41,585 nt of DNA, from IMG/VR virus record IMGVR_UViG_3300008266_000889, positions 1 through 41,585 of that record; one strand, written 5' to 3'. The notes under the pieces are model-generated. The model was given only the letters and a program-made list of their open reading frames with translations. It ran no database searches and was not told the DNA's origin. This document shows positions 20,985 through 37,015 of the stretch, piece after piece. How positions within the stretch are numbered: position 1 is the first letter of the stretch; every line of letters starts with the position of its first letter. Origin of the DNA: a virus. The position numbers and the translations under genes were made by a program.

Positions 20985-22853
20985 TTAGTTTTCTATGTCT
21001 AAAATGTTATCTTCACTTAAGATACTAGGTTGTGCTGTACCAGATTTATGTGCGTTTAATTGTTTAATGAGGTTAGAAACTTCGTGATTTTCTAAGGATA
21101 ATGGTGACTTTTTGGTTGGCTTACGTAATTGTCCTACTCGTAAAGCTCCCAAGTTTTCCTTATGCCCAAGCGGGTCGCGGCCCCGTGGGTGACTATCTTG
21201 ACCATACTTTTGACCTTCTTTTGGACGACCTATCTTGGCTTCTTCTAATTCAGAGTCGTCACCACCTTCATCTTCAGTTGGCATATCTTCCAATGAAGCC
21301 AAAACATCAGCTACACTATCAATCTTTTGGTCTTCCGGAGCAGGTTCTTCTGCGGCTGGAGTTTCTGCTGGTTGTGTTGGTTGTTCTGGTTGCGTTGGTT
21401 GTTGTTGAGCTGCATCTAACTTTGCCAACATTTGCATATCTTGTTCAACTTTCTTTTGTTCTTCCTTCGCATCATCTTGAGCGATTTGAAGAATATTATG
21501 ATATACCCAATCACGGGAAAGGAACTTACTATTAGCAATTTGTTCTGCTAAGGAGACTTTTTCCTTCCACAAGTTTAACTTTTCTTGTTCGTAAATGACC
21601 GATGGTGAAGTCATTTCAAGCTCAAAGTCAATCAATTCTTCGTCGGTAAATCCTTGAACATATAAGTGAATAATTGCAATCTTGGTGAGTTCTGATACGA
21701 CAATACGTTGAATGCGTTCGATGGTACGAGCGAACCGAACGTCTTGTGCTGCCAATGATGCCTTACCACTATTATCTTCTTCGTACCCCAAGAATGACTT
21801 TGGTACCTTGAAGGCTGCCATCAACTTATTACGGAGATATTCGATATCTTCAATAGCGTTGAATTGGAGGCCTGGGAGATTGGTAATATCTGTTCCAGAA
21901 TCCTTACCACGAACTGGAAGATAGAAATCTTCCGTGATGTTCATCATATTGTAACGAAGATTGTAGTCACCCGTCTTTGGGTCCACTAATGGTACTTTCT
22001 TCATGCGGTCAATGATACGTTGCATATGCGTATCAATTTCAGCTGGTGGGATATTACCGATATCTACCAAGACCTTACGCTTGTCTGGTGCTCTCATAAT
22101 ACGATGAATTAACATCGCGTCTTCCATCAATTGAAGTTGCTTCCAAATACGACGACCGCCTTCAATCATCGCCTTTCCGTATGGAAGGAAGTTCGTATCA
22201 GAAAGGAGACGGAAGTGTGCGATTTCGTAATTATCAAATTCCTTCTTACCTAGTGCTAAGAAGTCATTTTCAATCTTGAACTTGACTGAGAATGGATTGC
22301 CTGGGTCTTGGCCTTCTACACGGATGGTTTCATAGATGGAAAGTGGAATAGCGTTTACCACACCGTACTTTTCATCGATGTCAAGGAATAAAAAGAAATC
22401 TCCATACTTAGCCATATTTCTGACCCATGGCCAGAGATTGAATTCAACATTCAATACATCATAGAATAAGTTATGGAGAATATCTTGAATTTGTTGGTTT
22501 TTTGAACGGATACTAAGTACTTGTCCGAATTCATCTTTTACAGTTGATTCGTCGGCGTAAATGTCCATAACCGATGAAATGATAGGGTCATTATCCATCA
22601 TATCATAGTCACGGAACAATTGAAGGCGTGACCCTTGGAATGCTGCTGACGATTCGTAACGACCACCAGCTGCACCATATCCTCCCGTCATTGATGAATA
22701 GACGCGGTGGTATCTATCAATACCGCGTCTATTGATAAACGACTGGATATTGTCGGTGTCAGCGACTTTTAATCTTTTACCGCCTACATTACGGACAACT
22801 GTATTTGTTGAAAACAGTTTCCGTAGGCGACCAAACACACTAGTATCTGCCAT
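20985..22853 (-). CDS. gp20: Portal vertex protein gp20
   Basis: Dodecameric portal at one head vertex; it nucleates prohead assembly, docks the terminase and later the neck. The 622 residues exceed T4 gp20 (524). Conserved parts include the N-terminal RLRKLFSTN, YDMMDNDPIISSVMDIYADEST, PYGKAMIEGGRRIWKQLQLMEDAMLIHRIMRAPDKR, DFYLPVRGKDSGTDITNLPG, and AAFKVPKSFLGYEEDNSGKASLAAQDVRFARTI (cited in short parts; all classic gp20). The extra length is a C-terminal acidic, Pro/Gln-rich, probably disordered tail from about residue 480. ATG 22853 has GAGGGG upstream. It lies downstream of gp17 and a set of small genes. Confidence 0.97.
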   Translation of the reverse strand: MADTSVFGRLRKLFSTNTVVRNVGGKRLKVADTDNIQSFINRRGIDRYHRVYSSMTGGYGAAGGRYESSAAFQGSRLQLFRDYDMMDNDPIISSVMDIYADESTVKDEFGQVLSIRSKNQQIQDILHNLFYDVLNVEFNLWPWVRNMAKYGDFFLFLDIDEKYGVVNAIPLSIYETIRVEGQDPGNPFSVKFKIENDFLALGKKEFDNYEIAHFRLLSDTNFLPYGKAMIEGGRRIWKQLQLMEDAMLIHRIMRAPDKRKVLVDIGNIPPAEIDTHMQRIIDRMKKVPLVDPKTGDYNLRYNMMNITEDFYLPVRGKDSGTDITNLPGLQFNAIEDIEYLRNKLMAAFKVPKSFLGYEEDNSGKASLAAQDVRFARTIERIQRIVVSELTKIAIIHLYVQGFTDEELIDFELEMTSPSVIYEQEKLNLWKEKVSLAEQIANSKFLSRDWVYHNILQIAQDDAKEEQKKVEQDMQMLAKLDAAQQQPTQPEQPTQPAETPAAEEPAPEDQKIDSVADVLASLEDMPTEDEGGDDSELEEAKIGRPKEGQKYGQDSHPRGRDPLGHKENLGALRVGQLRKPTKKSPLSLENHEVSNLIKQLNAHKSGTAQPSILSEDNILDIEN

Positions 22854-26346: not shown

Positions 26347-27930
26347 TTATAGTAACCACCGTAAATTTTCCTTTTCTTGACCAATTTGCATCTCATACGG
26401 GTTCTGGTTCATATTATTGGAACTATACACCATGGTTCCGAGTTGATATTTTGCTTTATCAATCGCTATTTTGGTCAACTCTATCCCTTCTTGACGTAAT
26501 CTGAGAGCGGTGTCACGTACCCATAATCCGATACAAAGCGCTAACACTAAGTCGTCGTTGTACCCCGACAACGCTTCCGGCCGACCATTCTTCCAAATAA
26601 ACGTTTCCAGTTCTGCAATCATACGTGGGGAACGAATGGTGAATGAGGTTTCCAACATATATTCCTTTAATCTGGCGATAATCAATGGACGAGTCCGTTG
26701 CGAAATCATAAATCCAGGTACCATGCTCTTTTCTTCTTTATAATATTTTCCAGATATTTGGTGTTCTACGTCCACATATTGTAAATCTCTGGACATATAA
26801 AAGAGATTTTTGTACCCACGGTCGATAATTTGCTGGATAGCGTTCCACCCAATACTACTGTTGTCCGGAATAAGGAGGGCGTCATTATATTGCGTGGCAA
26901 TTGACACCAACATATTTCCGAATGCCTTCGTTTCAATTTTCCCCTTGTATTCCGCAACTTGGGTGGACGATTCTACATCAATTACGTGAAAGGTTGAATA
27001 GTCCTCGCCGTCGCCGCGGGAAACGTCAGCGGCGACAATATATGACTTGGATGGATGTGGATATTCCCAAATCCAAAAGTTTCCATCAAACCCTGTCTTT
27101 TCCATCGGCTCTTGAACATACGTCTTTTTATAGAATTCAAGGATTTCCGGCGGAACTACAGTATTACCCGAAAAAATGAATGATGCATCGTGTTCTTGTG
27201 CCGATTGCATTTCGCCCATCAATTCTGTCTGACGGTCACGCCATGCTTGGTCACGTTCTGGATGAACTCTCCAATCTAATAATATGGTATTAAACCCGTT
27301 GGTCTTGGCCTCTGCTTGTTGCCACATCTTATGGAAGAAGTTACCAACGCCGTTTGGAGTAGATAATAGGATTGCTTTACCACCCGTGGATAGCGTGCTG
27401 GATGCTGCGGTCCAGATGATATCTGCGTCATCGATGAACGCACATTCGTCCAGAATCAACAGAGAAAGTGCTTCAGAACGACCTGCATCTGGACTTGACG
27501 CAACTGCCTTAATCTGTGACCCGTTAGAGAATTGTAAAGAAAGTTTATTATCTGTCGTGACTTGTCCCCGCAACCAAACTGGAAGATTTTGATGCATGAA
27601 CTTTACCTTAGTGACCAAGTTCTTTGCGGTTTCTTGTTTGGTTGCGATAACGAGGATATTTTTATCTTTGTGAAATAACATTAACCACAGAGAGTATCCC
27701 GCGACTAACGTGGAAATACCAATCTGACGACCTTTGAGAACGATATTATAATCATTCTGTTCAAAGTCAGTTAATGCGTTTTCTTGATATTTGTATAAAT
27801 CAAACAACACCCGACCACGAATCGGGTGTTGAATGTATGAGTATCGTGATAAGAAGTATGCGGGGTCTACTGCACATTTCTTAAATTCTTCTTTAATTTT
27901 TTCACGTAACTGTTGTGCTGTCGCGTTCAT
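26347..27930 (-). CDS. gp17: Terminase large subunit gp17
   Basis: Packaging motor ATPase plus headful nuclease. 527 residues (T4 610). The ATPase domain has the Walker-A region KGRQIGIST (66-74), Walker B LLILDE (157-162), and coupling motif LLSTPNG (188-194). The nuclease domain has AADVSRGDGEDYS (Asp302), PDNSSIG (Asp356) and YNDDLVLAL (Asp459/460), the RNase H-fold acidic set. The Walker A differs from T4 SRQLGKTT: the usual Lys is Ile, and Lys66 lies before Arg68, as in some other terminase families. ATG 27930 lies 7 nt after the membrane coiled-coil gene. No obvious small terminase is adjacent. Confidence 0.96.
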   Translation of the reverse strand: MNATAQQLREKIKEEFKKCAVDPAYFLSRYSYIQHPIRGRVLFDLYKYQENALTDFEQNDYNIVLKGRQIGISTLVAGYSLWLMLFHKDKNILVIATKQETAKNLVTKVKFMHQNLPVWLRGQVTTDNKLSLQFSNGSQIKAVASSPDAGRSEALSLLILDECAFIDDADIIWTAASSTLSTGGKAILLSTPNGVGNFFHKMWQQAEAKTNGFNTILLDWRVHPERDQAWRDRQTELMGEMQSAQEHDASFIFSGNTVVPPEILEFYKKTYVQEPMEKTGFDGNFWIWEYPHPSKSYIVAADVSRGDGEDYSTFHVIDVESSTQVAEYKGKIETKAFGNMLVSIATQYNDALLIPDNSSIGWNAIQQIIDRGYKNLFYMSRDLQYVDVEHQISGKYYKEEKSMVPGFMISQRTRPLIIARLKEYMLETSFTIRSPRMIAELETFIWKNGRPEALSGYNDDLVLALCIGLWVRDTALRLRQEGIELTKIAIDKAKYQLGTMVYSSNNMNQNPYEMQIGQEKENLRWLL

Positions 27931-27937
27931 AAAACCT

Positions 27938-28600
27938 CTACTTGATTACAAGGACTCCTGCTCCGATACCCATTGCTAATCCAACCGCAAAGGATGCCTT
28001 TCGACTTGGTAACTTGATTCCAAACATACGGTTAGGATTCTTTGGGGCAGGTGGGATAAGATTGATAACTGCTTGGAGACTATCACCCCGCATCATCGCC
28101 ATACGCAATGCATTATCTTTGCTTAACAATGCACCTTCAAGTTCTGTTACTTGGGTACCTTGTGTGGCAATGGTTTCTTTTTGTTTTGCGATAATAGAAT
28201 CTTTAAGTGGTAAGATTTGACGAGCTAATTCTAACGTGTCAAGTAATGTTTCTTTCATCACTTCCGCCCGTTCTTCCATACTTAATGTTTCGTTCTGTAG
28301 TACACTGACTTGACGACTTAATACTTTGGCACGACCTTCAGCTGCTCGGGACTCATTGTCGGCAATAACAATTTCTTGTGACAAACTATCGGCTAGTTCT
28401 GTCGCTTGTTCAGCCTTTGCTTGAAATACCTTGTATTCGGCAATATATTTGTCCATTTCATCTTCGGTCTTATTAACCTTGAACATCATTACTAATGACA
28501 ATACACCGGCCGCTACTAATGCAATTTTAGCGAGTGGCAGTGTGATAGTTTCAGCTATTAACTTCGTCCGTTCCAGTAACGACTTCGTTTTTCGTTTCAT
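27938..28600 (-). CDS. Membrane-anchored coiled-coil protein, 220 aa
   Basis: I start it at ATG 28600 (MKRKTKSLLERTK) because GGAG lies 7-8 nt upstream; it overlaps the zinc-ribbon gene by 50 bp. There is a hydrophobic segment at about residues 20-41 (LPLAKIALVAAGVLSLVMMF), then a long coiled coil (about 45-165) with periodic AEQATELADSLSQE and ELEGALLSKDN. After a Pro-rich break (LIPPAPKNPNR) comes a second Gly-rich hydrophobic tail (FAVGLAMGIGAGVLVI). This could be a spanin- or holin-associated lysis protein or a membrane tether; nothing decides it. It is the gene just before gp17. Confidence 0.75.
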   Translation of the reverse strand: MKRKTKSLLERTKLIAETITLPLAKIALVAAGVLSLVMMFKVNKTEDEMDKYIAEYKVFQAKAEQATELADSLSQEIVIADNESRAAEGRAKVLSRQVSVLQNETLSMEERAEVMKETLLDTLELARQILPLKDSIIAKQKETIATQGTQVTELEGALLSKDNALRMAMMRGDSLQAVINLIPPAPKNPNRMFGIKLPSRKASFAVGLAMGIGAGVLVIK

Positions 28601-29189
28601 TATCTTCTCCAGTACCAAATTCTGTAATTGTATCATCTAACATTTTTTGCAAATTCGCAATATCTGCCCGAAGGTCAGACTTTACTTTTTCAATATCAAC
28701 GTCCCACTTTTCAATCATCAAAATTTTTGTTTCGTCAGCGTTCACGAATTCTGGTTTGGTGACGGTATCGTGATAGTCTTGAAGTTCTGCAATAGTGTCT
28801 CTGAGTTTAGCTATGTAATTTCTCAGTAATGTCTTGTGTTCAAATTCTTGCCATTTTCCTTGACGACGAAGTTCCGTTTCAGCTTTAATGTTACAATCAA
28901 AGCAATGACCACGGATTCTCCAAAATTTAATATCAAATCTATGATTCATTGGCTTACTGCACTTTGGACACCAATAGGGAGTCTTTGCAGAATCCAACTT
29001 TGTAACGGATTGGCGGATACCACCCTTGATTGTCCATTTCTTTCCATTAACATCTACCCACTCATCGCCTTCCTTTCTAGTGGGTTCTGGCTCTCCTCGC
29101 CATCCAAATATTAACTTGTCACCATCCTTCTTCATTTTTTCTGCAACTTTTCTACGAACATCATTTAATGCTTCTTCATTTTTAAACAT
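28551..29189 (-). CDS. Zinc-ribbon protein upstream of the terminase, 212 aa
   Basis: Starts at ATG 29189. An EWVDVNGKKWTIKGGIRQSVTKLD strand block (43-66) leads into a four-Cys zinc ribbon, CPKC (74-77) and CFDC (96-99). Then come two coiled-coil helices (about 105-190) and an acidic tail. Proteins of this layout occur near terminase genes in marine T4-like phages. With no gp16 homologue recognised here, it is a candidate for a packaging accessory or small-terminase replacement; that rests only on position, a nucleic-acid-binding fold and coiled coils. Confidence 0.8.
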   Translation of the reverse strand: MFKNEEALNDVRRKVAEKMKKDGDKLIFGWRGEPEPTRKEGDEWVDVNGKKWTIKGGIRQSVTKLDSAKTPYWCPKCSKPMNHRFDIKFWRIRGHCFDCNIKAETELRRQGKWQEFEHKTLLRNYIAKLRDTIAELQDYHDTVTKPEFVNADETKILMIEKWDVDIEKVKSDLRADIANLQKMLDDTITEFGTGEDNETKNEVVTGTDEVNS

Positions 29190-29195
29190 ATAACC

Positions 29196-32009
29196 TCACT
29201 TGGTTGCGAATATCTGTGCCTTGTCTTCTGTACCGAAGTACTTAATTTGACCCTTCTTATTTTTACCGCCAAAGTTACCACCGGCGGTTTGCCACGTTTC
29301 GCCTGGTTGGTATTGAGATGCGTCATTACTTGTATTAGTATCTACATTTGGCTTGTCCTTTGGTTGCTTTTGTGCTGGAGTTACCGGCATTACTTTTCCT
29401 TTTGTTGGTTCTGTAAACTTGTTGGTAATTTTCAATTCTTCTTCTGATTTGGTTGTGGTTTTTATAACCTTATCGAAGATATCTTGGTCAAACTTACCGT
29501 ATACCTTTGCGAAGATTTCTTGCTTGACTTCATCGGTGATATTTGGATTACCAAAAATTGCTCGAAGTTGTGTTCCACTAATATTCTTCCCATCAATATC
29601 AACCTTCAATTCTGGAGCGACCATAAAATATCCTTGGTCGGCAAATCCTTTCTTTGGACCCTTTTCATCGTATGGTTGGAAATACTTTCCACCTAAACGC
29701 TCCGCGTCCTTTTGACTGACGGCAGTAACGTATACGGTTTCTGGTGGTAATTTTTCAAGAATTTCTTTTGGTGCGTATGGATTCTTGACTTGAACCACCA
29801 TATCTTCTGGAATATCAAACATCTGGGTCATAATCTGCTTCTTATCGTTGAATCTGAATGGAGACTTCCCAGCTTCGGTCTTGTCACTTGTTGCGATGTA
29901 TACGTTTTCCTTACCAAACTTATCCACCATTGACTTGTAGATACTATAGTGACCAGCGTGGAATGGTTGGAAACGTCCGGTAAAGATAGCGACAGTACGT
30001 TGTTCACCTTGAGCTGGTTTTGTGGTTGGTTCTGTTTTTGGTGTTTCTTTTGGTTCATCAACTAACTTTGCTTCGCCCTTATCAAACTTTAACGTACCTA
30101 AAATTTGATTTACTGGAGCGAATGTTCCGGTGAACTTGTATGGCTTACCCTTGTACATAAAGACCATACCTTCGGTTGGAACAATATTATCCATTCCGAT
30201 ATCTTGCAAGCGTTCCAATTGAATTTGTAACGCAGCTAATTTGTTTGCATCACCCGTTTGCTGAATTTGCTTAATTGTATCTAACACTTCTGCCTTCAAC
30301 TTCTTCGCAAGTTCTGGATTATTTGCTGATAAGAAATCAGTAACCCGCTTAAGTGACATAGCACCCACTTGCAAGAATACACTTTCCAGCGGACGTACTG
30401 CTTCGCGTTGTGCGGCTTTTAATTCACTTCCTTCAAATTGACGGAACCACTTTTTCTTTTCTGGGTCTTCAATGTCGGAGACTTTGAACTTCTTATCACC
30501 CAATGCCCAGCGACGAGTCATACCTTCAAATTCTTGTTTAGTAAATTCCAAACCATTTTCTTGGGAAATTTGAATAAGTTTATCTTCCCACCACTTTGTC
30601 TTATAATCTTCAATAGTGGACTTATCGTCCAATCCATATTCTTTCTGTAATTGAGAAATACGTGCACCGATTTTCTTCAATGCATTTTTATTTTCTACTG
30701 TCTGTGCATCGCTGAAACTGATTGTCTTTGGACCAGAGATACCAAATGTTTTTTGCTTTTGCGCATTAACCTTAGTAAGTTGGTCAGATAATTCACGGCC
30801 ATCTTCGACTGACCGCTTGATTTCGTTACCTTCGTCGTCATATTCAACGGTTCCGTGAAACACCAATACTGACTTGTCATACGGGATAACATTCTTAGTG
30901 TCTGGAAAAACGATTTCAACATTCATAAACTTCGACCCGTCGGCAAACATCTTACTTCGTTCATCTTCTGGGAGTGCATCAATTGCACTTTGTAAATCTT
31001 CTGCTGCCCCAGTAAATGCCTTTTCAATATCCCCACGGCCAGCAAACATTTGACGAATGCCGGCGGTATCTAATGCGTTCTTACCTTTGTTCTTGACTTG
31101 TCCCTTATTACGAGCGAAATAAACACGACCGTCGCGCACGGTGAACATAATATTTTGACCGTCAAGTTTTTCAGTGACGGGTTCTTCTGCTCCCAAATCA
31201 CCAACCAATCCACGGGTAACCATATCTTTTACGTCTGTAAATGAAAGTGAATCATCTTCGTATGGGTGCGCCATATGTCCTGCGGCACCACCTTCGTAAA
31301 TGAGTGTCCAACTACCATTTGGTACAAGCCCCTCTGCTAATTCTGACAGATAGACGTATTCAATATTTTCGTTCTTCTTATCCCGGCCGTGGTCTTTCTT
31401 TGCTAATTTCCAATTACCATTTTGTGCACCGTTTGGATGATGCACATCGTGATTTTTCATCTTAGCTTTGCCGTGTTTTTTAACTGCCTTACGTCTGTCA
31501 CGATTACGAGCAACACGATCATCTTGTGTCTTTTTTAGATATGCACGAACTTTTTCTGGATGACGGCGATAATACCGACGAACACGTTCTGTGCTGGAAT
31601 CTGCTTCGTTTTTTGGTTTAAGTTGATAGTCATCGTCTGGACCGCTTGACATCGGATATGTGAATTTTGACCCAGCTAGACCTTTCATTTCACCAACTCC
31701 GGCTCCGTCTCCGCCTGCTGCATCTCCGGCGTCTCCAGCATCCCCTGCGTCTACTCCACCATCTGTACTTGTTGGAATTTCTGCAGGCGGGTTGTCCTTC
31801 ATATACTTATCCCAAACCGGAGCGTAGTGTAATCCCCACACCTTGGCTTGCTTACACTTTTTACGTATTTGATTTCCAGAATCAGTCGGATAGATGGTAC
31901 ACTTCTTTCGTTTCTTTTCATCTAACGCATGAAGCATCCGATTGAACTCGTTTATATGAAACTGTTCAGATTGAGCTTGTTCAAATAAAATATCTATTGC
32001 TGATTTCAT
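29196..32009 (-). CDS. Multidomain nucleotidyltransferase: HNH-like + ligase-type + HxGH NMNAT-like, with capsid-targeting-like N-terminus
   Basis: 937 residues, start ATG 32009 overlapping the previous stop (ATGA). Order: residues 1-10 MKSAIDILFE, close in form to T4's capsid-targeting peptide; a Lys/Cys-rich part; an Asp/Gly-rich linker (about 83-107); a basic HNH-like segment (NHDVHHPNG...DHGRDK, His190/191 and His207); a covalent-nucleotidyltransferase domain with motif I TEKLDGQN (Lys281), NVEIVFPD (Glu365), EGMV (613-616) and KPYKFTG; then an HxGH domain with GRFQPFHAGH (678-687) and ISGTQLR (810-816), the two signature motifs of NMN/cytidylyltransferases. The tail is low-complexity. 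The likely chemistry is adenylylation of nucleic acid and/or NAD synthesis. Substrates are unknown. Confidence 0.85.
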   Translation of the reverse strand: MKSAIDILFEQAQSEQFHINEFNRMLHALDEKKRKKCTIYPTDSGNQIRKKCKQAKVWGLHYAPVWDKYMKDNPPAEIPTSTDGGVDAGDAGDAGDAAGGDGAGVGEMKGLAGSKFTYPMSSGPDDDYQLKPKNEADSSTERVRRYYRRHPEKVRAYLKKTQDDRVARNRDRRKAVKKHGKAKMKNHDVHHPNGAQNGNWKLAKKDHGRDKKNENIEYVYLSELAEGLVPNGSWTLIYEGGAAGHMAHPYEDDSLSFTDVKDMVTRGLVGDLGAEEPVTEKLDGQNIMFTVRDGRVYFARNKGQVKNKGKNALDTAGIRQMFAGRGDIEKAFTGAAEDLQSAIDALPEDERSKMFADGSKFMNVEIVFPDTKNVIPYDKSVLVFHGTVEYDDEGNEIKRSVEDGRELSDQLTKVNAQKQKTFGISGPKTISFSDAQTVENKNALKKIGARISQLQKEYGLDDKSTIEDYKTKWWEDKLIQISQENGLEFTKQEFEGMTRRWALGDKKFKVSDIEDPEKKKWFRQFEGSELKAAQREAVRPLESVFLQVGAMSLKRVTDFLSANNPELAKKLKAEVLDTIKQIQQTGDANKLAALQIQLERLQDIGMDNIVPTEGMVFMYKGKPYKFTGTFAPVNQILGTLKFDKGEAKLVDEPKETPKTEPTTKPAQGEQRTVAIFTGRFQPFHAGHYSIYKSMVDKFGKENVYIATSDKTEAGKSPFRFNDKKQIMTQMFDIPEDMVVQVKNPYAPKEILEKLPPETVYVTAVSQKDAERLGGKYFQPYDEKGPKKGFADQGYFMVAPELKVDIDGKNISGTQLRAIFGNPNITDEVKQEIFAKVYGKFDQDIFDKVIKTTTKSEEELKITNKFTEPTKGKVMPVTPAQKQPKDKPNVDTNTSNDASQYQPGETWQTAGGNFGGKNKKGQIKYFGTEDKAQIFATK

Positions 32010-33814
32010 GGAAGAGTACCCAAGTCGATATTCGAACCAGTAAAGAAAGTTGGTATCGAAGAAACAGCGACATCTGTTGAATTATTGTTAATATCAAAGA
32101 ATTCTACTTTATGCTCTAATAACTCATTAAAATATTCAGTATTTGGTACTAATACTTGTGCTTCATCTGGAGAAAATAACTTATCTGAGGCTGGTTTTAA
32201 TGAAATATTAGACAAATACCAAAATCCATTACTTACTACAAACCGAATACCAACCGAACTTCCTATGGAAATAGCCGGCGTGAAGTTAAATTGTTTTTGT
32301 TGGAATCGTTGAGACGCCGCTCCAGTTACTACAGATAATGTACCTATTTTTTGTCCTAGTGGATTATTATCAATAACCAGTGTGTTATTAACTCCTACCA
32401 TATAAATATCTATCTTCGGGTCTACACCAGTTAAATTTACTGATCCTGAATAATTTTTGTAAAATGCATCAAGTTGGAGAGTATATTCTGTTGTTGGGAA
32501 TAATGTAATAGATTCTTTATTTCCAATAAAATATCCGCTAGCAGACACACTTCCGGAAAATACTTGGTCATTATATGTTGGAACATCTGCCCGAATTGAC
32601 CGTAGTAACACATCATCAGTTACAGATAGTGTGAAAGGTGTAGACGTAAGTGATGAATTATAATACGGTTCTGACCCCGACACTGTGTATATCGGATTAC
32701 TACTGGATAGTAGCGAATCCGCATACCAGTTTTCTGATGCCGTTGGTGTTGTATAAAAGTCTCCGATAGATAAATCACCACGAATCGAACTGGTTACTAA
32801 TAAATCATTAGTAGTTACTGGAGTATCTGCAACGAATTTATAATCGGATATGTTCGTTGAAACTCTACTTGATACTTTAAACTTGAATGGTTCGCCACTA
32901 ACCGTATTAAGATTAATAATTCTTAGCTTGGCGTATGAAATTGGTATGTTCACTTCGGTGGTACTTAGTTTACTATATACCAAATTGGCAGACGATGACA
33001 CTTCCACCGATGCTCCTAATATTGATGATGAGTAGCTACCACTTGTCAAATATAGTGATTCTATAACTTCACCGTTTGAGGTTTTGATAAGTTCACCTGT
33101 ACTAAACGCCGTCGTATCGTTTAAAATTTCATTGATGGGTACATACAAGCTTGCGCTTACCCCGTTTATCAACAACGACCCCGTGATGTACCCGCCAATA
33201 TAGTCTGCGGAAAATGACGTAGGTGCTTCTGCCTTAATCAAATAACCAATTTGAAAACTAGAATATTTTACCGGAGTTAAGCTTGCCGTGAACTGCGTAC
33301 TCGCGGATACATACGACGAGGTTGCCACACTATACAACCTCTTTTCTTCCGAAAACACAACTGGTGTATTTAAAAATACAAGTGGGGAAGTGTTTCTCGC
33401 GTTGGGTTCAACCAAAATTCTAGTTGACCAGCGAACATTATACGACTTTTCCCAGTTAGAAGGTATAGCTTCTCCGGTTGTCAACTTAGAGGCTATTCCC
33501 ATAATAATAACTGTAGCAAATCCAGGAGCTGTTTTTTCTGTAATTTCTACAGATATCAATCTGGAATTGCCTTGTATATACTTTTGAACTGGGTTCTGAA
33601 ATATAGTTTGTCCTTTCGCATCCAAAATTTCTATTTGAATACTAGACCCAGCTTTTAGAAATGGAGAACCCGCTAATAAAAACGAATTTCTACCACCACT
33701 AAAAGTCTGCGGTAGGTTTACTTGAAAATACGATGAGGTGGCTGACCTATCTTCAACCAACACATCGTATTTTGCTAAGTTTTTTAATTGTAACGTCTTT
33801 CTAGTCTTTGGCAT
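32006..33814 (-). CDS. Large Ser/Thr-rich virion protein, 602 aa
   Basis: Starts at ATG 33814 with a promoter-like box 22 nt beyond. It is beta-rich throughout with many Ser/Thr/Asn and few Cys, like fibre or baseplate proteins. It begins with a basic KTRKTLQLKNLAKYDVLVEDRS and a SYFQVNLPQTFSGGRNSFLLAG strand set, and has SGSVSASGYFIG and SGSVNLTG fibre-like turns in the C-terminal half. No catalytic motif or known domain is visible. Its stop overlaps the start of the ligase/NMNAT-like gene. It may be a baseplate, neck-whisker or head-decoration protein; I cannot choose. Confidence 0.78.
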   Translation of the reverse strand: MPKTRKTLQLKNLAKYDVLVEDRSATSSYFQVNLPQTFSGGRNSFLLAGSPFLKAGSSIQIEILDAKGQTIFQNPVQKYIQGNSRLISVEITEKTAPGFATVIIMGIASKLTTGEAIPSNWEKSYNVRWSTRILVEPNARNTSPLVFLNTPVVFSEEKRLYSVATSSYVSASTQFTASLTPVKYSSFQIGYLIKAEAPTSFSADYIGGYITGSLLINGVSASLYVPINEILNDTTAFSTGELIKTSNGEVIESLYLTSGSYSSSILGASVEVSSSANLVYSKLSTTEVNIPISYAKLRIINLNTVSGEPFKFKVSSRVSTNISDYKFVADTPVTTNDLLVTSSIRGDLSIGDFYTTPTASENWYADSLLSSSNPIYTVSGSEPYYNSSLTSTPFTLSVTDDVLLRSIRADVPTYNDQVFSGSVSASGYFIGNKESITLFPTTEYTLQLDAFYKNYSGSVNLTGVDPKIDIYMVGVNNTLVIDNNPLGQKIGTLSVVTGAASQRFQQKQFNFTPAISIGSSVGIRFVVSNGFWYLSNISLKPASDKLFSPDEAQVLVPNTEYFNELLEHKVEFFDINNNSTDVAVSSIPTFFTGSNIDLGTLP

Positions 33815-33850: not shown

Positions 33851-36800
33851 TTAGACATTAATATACGAGAAACCGTCCTCCCGTTTGATTTCAATTACCT
33901 TATCCACCATATCCCGAGCGGTATCCAAGTGACTGATGAGGATAAGGAAATCGAATTGTGACTTTAGGATACCCATCATTGTTCCCATCGCACTGAGGTT
34001 TTCTGGGTCAAGTGTTCCCAATCCTTCGTCAATAATCATAAAGTTCGGTTTTGGGAGATTGGATGCGTTTAACAGAGCCACCCGAATGGCGAGACTGCTG
34101 ATGAATCGTTCCATACCCGACGAGTTTTCCAACGGCCAAATACGTTCGTGGTCGTAGTTAAGCTTCCCAAGAATGTTCTTCCCATCCACTTCGAGAGAAA
34201 TGGTGAACTCGACAATCTGTGTTAAAATATTATTTATTTCAGACTCAATCGCCGGGATTGCCCGTGACATCAGTTCGTATGGTACCCCGTCACGACCCAC
34301 GGCTTCCATATAATACTTGTAGGCTTCGTAAGTATCTTCAAGTTCTTCTGCTTCCTTGATTTGGTTAAGGATATCAGTCTTAGTAGCCTCTAATACCTTA
34401 ATTTCACCGTGAAGTTCCCGAAGTTGCTTCTCCAACTTGTCCATCGTCTTTTTGTTGACACTAATATCGTATTCAACGTGACTGATATGTTCGTCAACCG
34501 TCTTGTTGTGCTTGATGTTTTCTTCGTTCACCTTATGTAATTCAATGTCCTTCTCAATCTGTTCCCGATTACGGTCACACTTTTCAATACTGGTAATCAA
34601 CTTCTGAATATCCAGTTCTAATCCACTTGCCTTCTTCTGGAGTTGTTGGACTTCACTCTGTATCTTCTCGTAGTATGCACAGAGATTAACCTTATCGACC
34701 AACGGTTCCATCTGCTGTTTGATTTCGTTTACTGCATCTTCTTGTTTAGTCTGAAGTTCATACAAGTCAACAAGTTCGTGAGTGACAGACTCCATATCTT
34801 CAATGATAGACTTGTTGTTTTCTACGCAGACATTACAATCTGGATTATACTTGTAACTTTCCAACTTGGTCTTGAACTTTTCCTTCTCCGTTACCTTTGA
34901 TGTAGTCAGCTTTAATGCGGCAGTCCCCTTATTGAATAAAGCAGACAATCTGTTATATTCTTCTACCGATTGACGAAGTTCTGGGACGTTCGCATCCACA
35001 ACCTGCTGCGTCTTTTCGGTAATCGTTGAGTGAAGTTCTTGGAGTCTGGTTTCGGCGTCAGCTCTACTTTCGGTATGTTGCGTAATTAATTTATTAGTCT
35101 CAACCAACTTCTGTTGCAGTTTATCCAAATTTAGTTCAATATTCGGGACGGGTTTCTTTTGGGTCTGCCAATCACGAAGTTTCCCATCTAACACCTCACG
35201 TTCGCCCTTGATTTCCGTGATAGTAGTTTCTACCATTTCGTGTTGTACCTTTGCATTTTCTAACTTGGTTTGGGTATCCGATAGGGTTTGGTCGAAATCA
35301 ATCTTCTTAAACTTTTTGAGTGCACCAGAGATTTCCTTACTCTCCTCGTTTGCGGTATCAAATAACTTATCAAAGATATTCAATCCCATAAATTGGATAA
35401 GTAAGTCCTTCCGTTCCGAATGTGACTTGTCAATGAATAGGGCGTTTGCCGTCTGACTACTCAACGTGGTCAATACGAAGTCCTCATAACTGCCTACATA
35501 GTTACGGATATTGGCGTTTGTATCCCGGCGGTCTTCACCGTTCAACGAAGTATGCGTTCCATCAGAATGTTCCTTCCAGAACGAAACGTCCACCTTGACA
35601 TCGCCTGTCTTTTTCCGTGTACCTGTTCGACGGATGAAATAAGTTTCTTGGTCAATCTCAAACTTCAACTCACATTCAAACGTATCTTTCCGATTGTTCA
35701 TAATATGGTCACCGCGGAACGCACGAGGAGTCTTGTCGTAGAGACAGAAGATAAGAGCATCCATCGATGAACTCTTCCCAGATGCATTCTGAGCAAAGAT
35801 ACCGTGAATCCCATGCATATTCTCAAAATCAATCTCGTTATTCTCACCATACGAGAACATATTGGAGAACGTGAACTTCAACGGACGCCAATGGATATTT
35901 CGTGAGTGGTCCTCATGACTTATTTGGGCGTTCAACTTATTGTTGACGGATACAACCTTTTTCATCAATTCATCATCAACGGTTTCGTGATTCCGTTCAA
36001 TCCAATCTTGAATCAACGAATTCTGCGTGTTCACATTAGTTACATCGGTCGTGATATGCGTTCCTTTACGATACGACGGGGATGAATTATTGAACCGATT
36101 CTTGTTGATGCTCAATTCAATCACATTGTAACGCTTCCGAAGTGCCGCTGTCGTTTTCTTAATGAGTGATGTATCAGCGTTTCCCGTGAACAACCGAAGT
36201 CGGACATTCTTCGGCATATCGATTGGAAAGTTAATCTTACCTTCGACTAACTCCAGTGTGTAATATCCATATGCGTTCGGAAGTTCCTTAAATACGTGTG
36301 TACACTCTTCAACATTCCAGAGACACCAGCCGTGACCAGTAACCGTTTCTCCGTGGTTCTGTTGGATAAGCGACGATGAGTACACGATGACGGGATTACT
36401 TTCCTGCAATACTTGATACTTGTGAATATCACCAAGAAGTACGGCGTCATATCCCTCGAATGTGGTCACATCTACGTGACGATTGGTGATGACGTACTTG
36501 ACATCGGTTTGTGCGCCGTGAACTGGTCCGTGGTATAATGCAATCTTTCGTACATTCTTACGACAATCTTCGACAACCGGCCATTGGTCACGGTCATCTA
36601 ATATAGAAAATACTGCGAAATCTACGTCAGCAACTTGGTAGATATCGGAGTGTTTGAAGTAATGGAGATTCGGATGGTTCAGATTCTTAATAATCGGCGT
36701 CAAACTATCCAACCGATTCATATTGGACAGATTGAGGTCGTGATTGCCTGCGATGATGAAAGTTGGAGCAATGTCCGCAAGATTACGGAGAAATTCTGAC

Positions 36801-37015
36801 GCGAGTTCCACCATCTCTGGACTCATATCCGTCTTAGCATGAAGTATATCACCAGCAACAAGGATAACCCCGTCAGTTAAATCTGTCTGACGGAGTTGCT
36901 GGTAGAATGTATTAAATGCTTCCCGATATTCTTCGTGACGCTTGAAAAGACGGATGTGAATATCTGCGGTATGTGCGATTGTTCGTAACTTCTTAAATGG
37001 TACGTCAATTCTCAT
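33851..37015 (-). CDS. gp47-gp46: Fused Mre11-like (gp47) and Rad50-like (gp46) recombination nuclease
   Basis: One 1054-residue chain holding what T4 makes as two proteins (339 + 560 aa). Residues 1-~375 are the SbcD/Mre11 phosphoesterase: HTADIH (Asp18, His20), AGDILH (Asp56), AGNHD (89-93), YHGPVHG (His162) and GDIH (195-198). Residues ~378-1054 are the SbcC/Rad50 ATPase: Walker A GIFAQNASGKSS (405-416), long coiled-coil arms, a CNVC zinc hook (727-730), signature SSGMERF (965-971), Walker B NFMIIDE (991-997) and D-loop GTLD. It resects double-strand ends for recombination-dependent replication. There is no internal stop or restart site. It overlaps the primase stop (ATGA). Confidence 0.95.
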   Translation of the reverse strand: MRIDVPFKKLRTIAHTADIHIRLFKRHEEYREAFNTFYQQLRQTDLTDGVILVAGDILHAKTDMSPEMVELASEFLRNLADIAPTFIIAGNHDLNLSNMNRLDSLTPIIKNLNHPNLHYFKHSDIYQVADVDFAVFSILDDRDQWPVVEDCRKNVRKIALYHGPVHGAQTDVKYVITNRHVDVTTFEGYDAVLLGDIHKYQVLQESNPVIVYSSSLIQQNHGETVTGHGWCLWNVEECTHVFKELPNAYGYYTLELVEGKINFPIDMPKNVRLRLFTGNADTSLIKKTTAALRKRYNVIELSINKNRFNNSSPSYRKGTHITTDVTNVNTQNSLIQDWIERNHETVDDELMKKVVSVNNKLNAQISHEDHSRNIHWRPLKFTFSNMFSYGENNEIDFENMHGIHGIFAQNASGKSSSMDALIFCLYDKTPRAFRGDHIMNNRKDTFECELKFEIDQETYFIRRTGTRKKTGDVKVDVSFWKEHSDGTHTSLNGEDRRDTNANIRNYVGSYEDFVLTTLSSQTANALFIDKSHSERKDLLIQFMGLNIFDKLFDTANEESKEISGALKKFKKIDFDQTLSDTQTKLENAKVQHEMVETTITEIKGEREVLDGKLRDWQTQKKPVPNIELNLDKLQQKLVETNKLITQHTESRADAETRLQELHSTITEKTQQVVDANVPELRQSVEEYNRLSALFNKGTAALKLTTSKVTEKEKFKTKLESYKYNPDCNVCVENNKSIIEDMESVTHELVDLYELQTKQEDAVNEIKQQMEPLVDKVNLCAYYEKIQSEVQQLQKKASGLELDIQKLITSIEKCDRNREQIEKDIELHKVNEENIKHNKTVDEHISHVEYDISVNKKTMDKLEKQLRELHGEIKVLEATKTDILNQIKEAEELEDTYEAYKYYMEAVGRDGVPYELMSRAIPAIESEINNILTQIVEFTISLEVDGKNILGKLNYDHERIWPLENSSGMERFISSLAIRVALLNASNLPKPNFMIIDEGLGTLDPENLSAMGTMMGILKSQFDFLILISHLDTARDMVDKVIEIKREDGFSYINV

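Follow-up and report, generated by a model that had tools for sequence, protein, structure and literature searches.

Why should a phage place, in a single polypeptide, a domain resembling the covalent nucleotidyltransferases of the ligase and capping type and a second domain of the HxGH adenylyltransferase superfamily? The question is raised by one gene in a viral record of 41,585 nucleotides (IMG/VR record IMGVR_UViG_3300008266_000889; the whole stretch, positions 1 to 41,585, is referred to as the window). The original prediction for this gene was that ligase-type and HxGH-type domains share one chain, which could couple the supply of nicotinamide adenine dinucleotide (NAD) or of nucleotides to the sealing, capping or tagging of nucleic acids. 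The shared chain was confirmed, as a single intact frame encoding 937 residues. We also found that RNA-ligase-type and HxGH-type sites are nearly always paired in many, mostly uncultured, T4-like phages, which suggests one job on nucleic-acid ends. Our working proposal, held tentatively and at well short of even confidence, is that the gene encodes a multidomain, probably virion-packaged ("polyvalent") phage enzyme whose two active sites act in sequence on nucleic-acid ends by way of an intermediate of the type AppX.

A fusion made by sequencing error, one of the conditions under which the original prediction would have failed, was ruled out, because the frame was found 99.9 to 100% identical on three further IMG/VR contigs (L002, L006 and L011; L numbers denote loci of our sample) and because relatives that are about 50 to 88% identical to the window protein also keep one frame. 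In two near relatives (L007 and L008), an in-frame gap removes 34 to 38 residues from the ligase domain, which may reflect a deletion or an assembly artefact.

The ligase-type domain was examined for the motifs of its superfamily, whose names follow PMC3149579 in part. The motif I lysine (KxDG) is residue 281, as had been claimed, and is identical in all 71 aligned rows. The basic residue of motif Ia, the glutamate of motif III and the EG pair of motif IV are equally fixed; the full set of invariant residues comprises K281, D283, G284, R300, E365, E613, G614, K625, T627 and G628. An AlphaFold2 model of residues 130 to 655 (predicted local distance difference test [pLDDT], 83.6) places a ligase-type fold around Lys281, in agreement with the original prediction, and in this model a largely helical stretch of about 200 residues separates motif IIIa from motif IV. 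The top 15 rows of a Foldseek search with the ligase-domain model were archaeal RNA ligases, fungal Trl1, T4 Rnl1 and T4 Rnl2 (best E value, 4.5e-3), and the top 25 rows from VIA-align were RNA or tRNA ligases, so that the adenylyltransferase-domain fold of RNA ligases heads both lists, with moderate scores. The VIA-align Z scores were 9.4 for NgrRnl (185 residues, 3.9 Å), 8.7 for T4 Rnl1, 8.5 for Trl1, 8.1 for TbREL1 and 8.0 for T4 Rnl2. RNA ligases outranked DNA ligases and capping enzymes, the first DNA ligase appearing at rank 26 (Z 7.2); families not present in the VIA lists were not counted as excluded.

Sequence profiles reached less far. Pfam RNA_ligase (PF09414) was listed for 8 of 12 family members, with a best E value of 0.0038 and scores below the curated cut-off of 27 bits; the window member scored 13.5 bits, and its residues 228 to 650 were otherwise unassigned by Pfam. 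No NCBIfam ligase model matched any of six family proteins at 0.01. A search of PDB sequences with the ligase profile matched nothing relevant; the assignment is therefore based on the motifs together with the predicted fold. On this basis, membership of the covalent nucleotidyltransferase/RNA ligase superfamily is supported, and the choice of nearest family is less so. The domain resembles the RNA ligases Naegleria NgrRnl, T4 Rnl1, T4 Rnl2 and fungal Trl1 in motifs I, Ia, III and IV, in the first lysine of motif V and in the core fold, but differs from them in falling under the Pfam cut-off, in the long stretch between motifs IIIa and IV, in its fusion to an HxGH domain and in the second half of motif V. 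Motif V carries two lysines (K-x-K) in T4 Rnl1 (FKIK) and T4 Rnl2 (IKCK). In the window family the first lysine is retained in 71 of 71 rows and the second position is threonine in 71 of 71 rows; the register was set by the spacing EG-x-V...K-x-T/K, compared with T4 Rnl1 and Rnl2, and not by superposition.

The predicted HxGH fold is secure, on sequence matches and model alike. Residues 670 to 870 match Pfam CTP_transf_like (E value, 7.2e-7) and the PHROG cytidyltransferases, and carry the HxGH and ISGTxxR motifs. The domain model (pLDDT, 89.9) has the nucleotide-binding fold that had been predicted; its best structural match was NadM (Z 11.9), followed by CoaD (11.1) and NadD (10.6), only 0.8 and 1.3 Z below. 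Phage NadM-Nudix proteins were matched at 22% identity. The window domain shares fold and motifs (GRFQPFHxGH and ISGTxxR) with NadM and other nicotinamide mononucleotide (NMN) adenylyltransferases, CoaD and NadD. It differs from the NadM family in lying far under the cut-offs of the NCBIfam NMN-adenylyltransferase models (best, 33.2 bits against 449; NF002243, 25.1 against 127) and in having its own signature, K-D-x-x-R...Y, in which K767, R771 and Y776 are found in 54 of 54 rows and D768 in 53. The fusion partner also differs, being a ligase domain here and Nudix or NR kinase in NadM and NadR (PMC9503650).

How constant is the pairing? At least 593 ligase-family stretches were found in IMG/VR environmental viral contigs, against 3 of 50,697 phage records, which argues for a widespread phage function missed by annotation. 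Our sample consisted of 23 loci retrieved with the window protein, the best 80 of the at least 593 retrieved by ligase alignment (some contigs repeated), 6 from a genome collection and 3 phage records. Hidden Markov models (HMMs) of the ligase and HxGH domains yielded 111 ligase frames outside the window, of which 69 are complete at both ends; the other 42, each cut off by the end of its contig, were excluded from the 69. Among the complete frames, the HMM placed HxGH before the ligase in 33, after it in 31 and nowhere in 5. Four of the 69 have a divergent HxGH domain. In L111 and L112 this is C-terminal, with the motif GGFKPPHxGH (HMM E values, 0.011 and 0.0016); in L106 and L110 it is N-terminal, where GGFKPLTGAH or GSFKPMTGGH is followed by IS[AG]T..R-like motifs, and the assignment is motif based, since the HMM E values are 0.11 and 0.19; Pfam HxGH families were not matched in these two. 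In L027 (LR756500), the ligase is unfused and the HxGH domain lies in the adjacent next gene (PF01467; E value, 1.8e-7). After removal of redundancy, 44 complete frames comprised 39 with HxGH by HMM, 4 with a divergent domain and 1 with the domain in the adjoining gene. HxGH was seen in 26 of the 42 incomplete frames and unseen in 16, all of which are open on the N-terminal side.

A profile search for the window's domain order in other phages recovered the same pairing in many of them, with the order itself permuted. In a quick maximum-likelihood tree (85 rows, long branches), the order changes at least three times while the pair is not lost; well-supported branches alone force as few as one change, at the main ligase-first group. 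A near-constant pairing that outlasts both reordering and splitting of the domains points to coupling of the two reactions. As a separate observation, the divergent gene of L112 (CP070664.1) lies in a WOR-3 chromosome among ordinary cellular genes, 650 bases after a Dfp/CoaBC-type gene, a placement that may be an error in a metagenome-assembled genome.

What reaction might this be? RNA ligases work in three steps: the enzyme adenylylates itself, passes the adenosine monophosphate (AMP) on to a 5'-phosphate, and then joins this end to a 3'-OH. HxGH enzymes produce AppX, the type of compound that is consumed in the third step, and England, Gumport and Uhlenbeck reportedly found in 1977 that RNA ligase 1 of T4 accepts AppX compounds as donors. 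According to PMC3149579, the second motif V lysine of T4 Rnl2 (K227) serves the transfer of the adenylyl group onto the enzyme and off it again, and the K227Q protein still joins pre-adenylylated donors, more slowly. A ligase weak in the first step, combined with an AppX-making enzyme, would be an end-tagging machine. Under the proposal, the HxGH domain would join ATP to a phosphorylated compound, pX, to give AppX; the RNA-ligase-type domain, which we infer to act mainly in the joining step, would use AppX as a ready-made donor; and pX would become attached to the 3'-OH of an RNA, which may be a tRNA, or possibly of DNA, with release of AMP. The protein would enter the cell with the phage DNA. 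A fuller version, in which a head-packaged enzyme puts pX on the 3' end of RNA or of phage DNA through a site for pre-adenylylated donors, and a kinase on the same chain in some relatives first makes pX, seems to us unlikely as it stands; to our knowledge, no enzyme is dedicated to leaving a 3' tag of this kind.

Entry with the DNA would require the protein to be in the head. According to PMC9026906, ten residues at the N terminus of T4 IPIII are enough to direct a protein to the head, and the T4 prohead protease cleaves after L/I-x-E. Of 32 distinct family N termini, 24 have [LI]xE among their first 20 residues, compared with 82 of 274 other open reading frames (ORFs) (Fisher P = 1.5e-6, the rows being related and hence not independent); among internal windows the figure was 190 of 1,541. 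Five of 37 distinct N termini had been dropped from this count, because the HxGH domain comes first in them or they appear to be truncated. A second line comes from LR756500. The pattern MK...(Y/F)..F..E occurs in T4 only in ipII, ipIII and gene 61.1, and in LR756500 it occurs at 21 places (2 in the backwards control), one of them the stand-alone ligase. Twenty of the 21 were fetched, and 18, the ligase included, lead into frames that are 81 residues or longer and mostly differ in their continuations. The stand-alone ligase is thus argued to be an internal head protein of LR756500, because the tag is common to it and 17 other ORFs. Its N terminus (MK..Y..F[IL].E) follows the pattern of the T4 IPII and IPIII capsid-targeting sequence, whereas the window protein has only the looser [LI]xE. 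Head packaging, which the original prediction had proposed, is suggested by the N-terminal [LI]xE and by the LR756500 tag, neither being proof; terminase adjacency is also in line with it, and all three are indirect.

A further N-terminal candidate, an LTEWLVKPLLE-type helix, was found on 18 ligase frames, in 0 of 864 other ORFs and, among 10,834 internal windows, in 11. Searched for as a DNA pattern, it turned up in 4 of 14 records, and in each of them it opened the fusion gene. It was set aside as a shared tag, because the pattern was drawn from these same sequences and the result is circular. Independently of the ligase, the LR756500 tag, in the form MK(Y/F)I..Y..F(L/I).E, marks 18 ORFs of this 462-kb phage (LR756500.1, loci L123 to L141) and may provide a list of injected proteins; by eye, these include several leucine-rich-repeat proteins, a HAD-like protein and others.

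Several observations count against the proposal of sequential action on an AppX intermediate. The K-x-T form of motif V need not block the first ligase step in this family, and its register is read from a sequence motif. None of the Foldseek matches to the ligase domain was below 1e-3. The hhalign comparison with T4 Rnl2 covers motifs I to IIIa only, with the motif I lysines aligned, at a probability of 12.8%, and that with T4 Rnl1 aligns only around motif III, leaving motifs I, IV and V unaligned, at 0.1%. At the other site, the first histidine of HxGH is glycine in 24 of 54 rows (FGPHH and similar for FHAGH), so the site may be altered in those rows. As to the pairing, up to 551 residues are visible before the ligase domain among the 16 incomplete frames with no visible HxGH, and the immuto phages have, in the same place, a 907-residue HxGH protein, annotated as NMN adenylyltransferase, with no ligase domain; the pair is therefore not obligatory from the HxGH side. 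As to delivery, the HxGH gene adjoining the tagged LR756500 ligase bears no tag, and the tag pattern was not found in Mel-JY01 or in 11 of 12 IMG/VR contigs tested (the twelfth has one match).

The extra domains of the relatives count in favor of this proposal and also of one of its rivals. Among 15 relatives scanned, a P-loop kinase (Zeta_toxin, over cut-off) was present in five, of 1,300 to 1,630 residues (L063, L066, L074, L077 and L081), and a polyA-polymerase/CCA-type head (E value, 1.5e-29), with CCA models matched in NCBIfam too, in one (L109). Peptidase_M78 in L024 and ParB_N in L026 were below curated cut-offs. Two or more unrelated enzymatic domains are thus found in one phage protein, as in the polyvalent proteins, which the authors of PMC5512222 infer to be injected along with the DNA. 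In that paper, polyvalent proteins likewise join very different enzyme domains in each chain and shuffle them between relatives. They differ in that the HxGH-ligase core is constant here, and a passage of the paper places RNA ligases among the other proteins of phages. Two side observations concern these chains. The frame of L109 (L109:829-6555) is a single one of 1,909 amino acids with the CCA/polyA-polymerase-type head, HxGH and ligase, and a ParB-like stretch by eye. An NRDRNY segment in L063, L069 and L060 looks Ntn-hydrolase-like by eye; no Ntn-hydrolase Pfam match was obtained for L063 and L060 at 0.01. PADLOC left five of six family proteins unmatched and gave a weak Csx19 match (E value, 0.0019) for the Mel-JY01 protein, which we judged to be due to chance.

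The rival that survives best would make the chain a pair of independent counter-defences, with the ligase repairing tRNA or other RNA that defense RNases have cut, the HxGH domain restoring depleted NAD+ (or coenzyme A) and the fusion ensuring joint delivery; we regard it as possible but doubtful. It can draw on the nearest relatives of each site (RNA ligases for the one fold; NadM and the NCBIfam NMN adenylyltransferase models for the other), on extra domains that vary as in the polyvalent proteins of PMC5512222, and on kinase and CCA-type domains that suit RNA repair. However, joint delivery leaves unexplained why the pair is constant in 69 complete frames while other domains vary. As for its NAD arm, PMC9503650 reports a nicotinamide phosphoribosyltransferase in every NadM phage, whereas this NMN-making (NadV-type) enzyme was found in 1 of 10 records, the one with the unfused ligase (the ten include six contigs whose completeness is not established, and immuto, which is without a ligase domain). 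NAD supply is therefore not supported, and NAD+ salvage as the main role is weakened further by the scores under the NCBIfam cut-offs. For the same reasons, and with the small lead of NadM over CoaD and NadD, NAD as the coupled metabolite, which the original prediction had named as one possibility, was not borne out. The ligase arm fares similarly. Further RNA ligases are encoded in three of the accessioned genomes that have this domain (Mel-JY01, annotated and below the Pfam cut-off; LR756508; LR756500), so that the fused ligase probably does something else, and a role as primary tRNA repair ligase is weakened.

Pairing would be accounted for by an NAD+-driven ligase with regeneration, which takes AMP from NAD+ and frees NMN, the HxGH domain then turning NMN and ATP back into NAD+. 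Such a cycle does not require a phage NMN source and agrees with NadM as the nearest HxGH fold, but it requires an NMN recognition that is not evident. The stand-alone LR756500 ligase has just 13 residues ahead of its domain, and so probably no LigA-like N-terminal NMN-binding domain there (the LigA Ia profile was not searched). CoaD and NadD follow NadM closely in structural score, and the divergent L106 and L110 domains carry TxxH motifs, which are typical of CoaD. We consider the cycle improbable. A role in packaging, in which the enzyme would seal or block phage DNA ends together with the terminase and its zinc-ribbon-like neighbor, fits the synteny alone and is scarcely probable, given that DNA ligases rank under RNA ligases, that the conserved order around the terminase may have other causes and that the upstream side of the gene in the window is occupied by replication genes.

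The proposal of two sites acting in sequence joins component families that are both known. The HxGH-ligase fusion, the constancy of the pair and the fixed motif V change were not found described in the part of the literature that could be searched, and a description may exist in print. Among the closest known proteins is WWT39297.1 of Mel-JY01 ("cytidylyltransferase like protein"), which likewise has HxGH and ligase and lies upstream of the terminase, but has the reverse order and an unannotated ligase half. The fusion protein is small enough for expression and testing, and a ligase in which nature has replaced the K227-type residue could be useful as a reagent, too.

A further part of the original prediction was dropped. 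A histidine cluster, given there as residues 190 to 207, had been labeled HNH-like; it lies at residues 185 to 207 within a conserved stretch, residues 131 to 215. No Pfam HNH model matched in any of five members at E values up to 10, and the stretch is kept as a conserved basic region only. It stands before the ligase domain in both layouts and is found in 40 of the 69 complete frames.

Table 1. Coordinates of the fusion gene, its parts and neighboring genes in the window
Feature	Position	Strand	Evidence or remark
Whole fusion gene, 937 aa, ATG start	29196..32009	-	Intact single ORF
Protein layout, N to C terminus: N-terminal peptide, conserved basic region, RNA-ligase-type domain, HxGH adenylyltransferase domain, tail	29196..32009	-	
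MKSAIDILFE (residues 1-10), candidate site for capsid targeting and prohead-protease cleavage; last residue of [LI]xE is residue 10	31980..32009	-	Sequence, weak
Conserved basic region, residues 131-215, DVHH..N..H	31365..31619	-	No Pfam HNH support
RNA-ligase-type nucleotidyltransferase domain, residues 238-642, helical insertion between motifs IIIa and IV	30084..31298	-	Motifs and predicted fold
Lys281, motif I (EKLDG), predicted AMP acceptor	31167..31169	-	71/71 rows; aligns with T4 Rnl2 EKIHG (low probability)
Thr627, place of second motif V lysine (K-x-T for K-x-K)	30129..30131	-	71/71 rows; register from motif, no superposition
HxGH adenylyltransferase domain, residues 670-870 (GRFQPFHAGH ... 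ISGTQLR)	29400..30002	-	Pfam, PHROG, model
Next gene, 212 aa, CxxC...CxxC zinc-ribbon-like stretch	28551..29189	-	Relative downstream in 101/111 loci
Terminase large subunit	26347..27930	-	Downstream in 101/111 loci
T4-type portal protein	20985..22853	-	Portal_T4, E 3.8e-64
SbcD/SbcC-like single chain (phosphoesterase + AAA), upstream of fusion gene	33851..37015	-	Profile matches

The window is the record of a T4-like phage, as judged from its portal protein (Table 1), and its terminase is 52.8% identical to those of the Flavobacterium phages immuto and of Microcystis phage Mel-JY01. No tRNA was found in the window, nor any Rfam family at gathering score. In 101 of the 111 loci each, the zinc-ribbon-like relative and then the terminase follow downstream on the same strand (the loci overlap in part, some contigs having been fetched twice); the 212-residue protein itself had no Pfam match at 0.01. 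Ten loci are without both neighbors: L008, L043, L063, L107 and L110 end within 500 bases, and L027, L064, L065, L111 and L112 do not. The gene had been described as lying among structural genes; its place is not simply that, because it has packaging genes on one side and replication genes (SbcC/D-like, primase) on the other. The sequence TATAAATA, the T4 late promoter core, has 9 sites in the window against 3.0 expected; it is uninformative on the fusion gene, because 8 of the 9 are on the plus strand, opposite to that gene. The first 4 bases of the fusion gene overlap the end of the gene upstream (32006 to 33814). Farther upstream, phosphoesterase and AAA parts are joined in one SbcD/SbcC-like chain; T4 carries its SbcD- and SbcC-like proteins as two genes.

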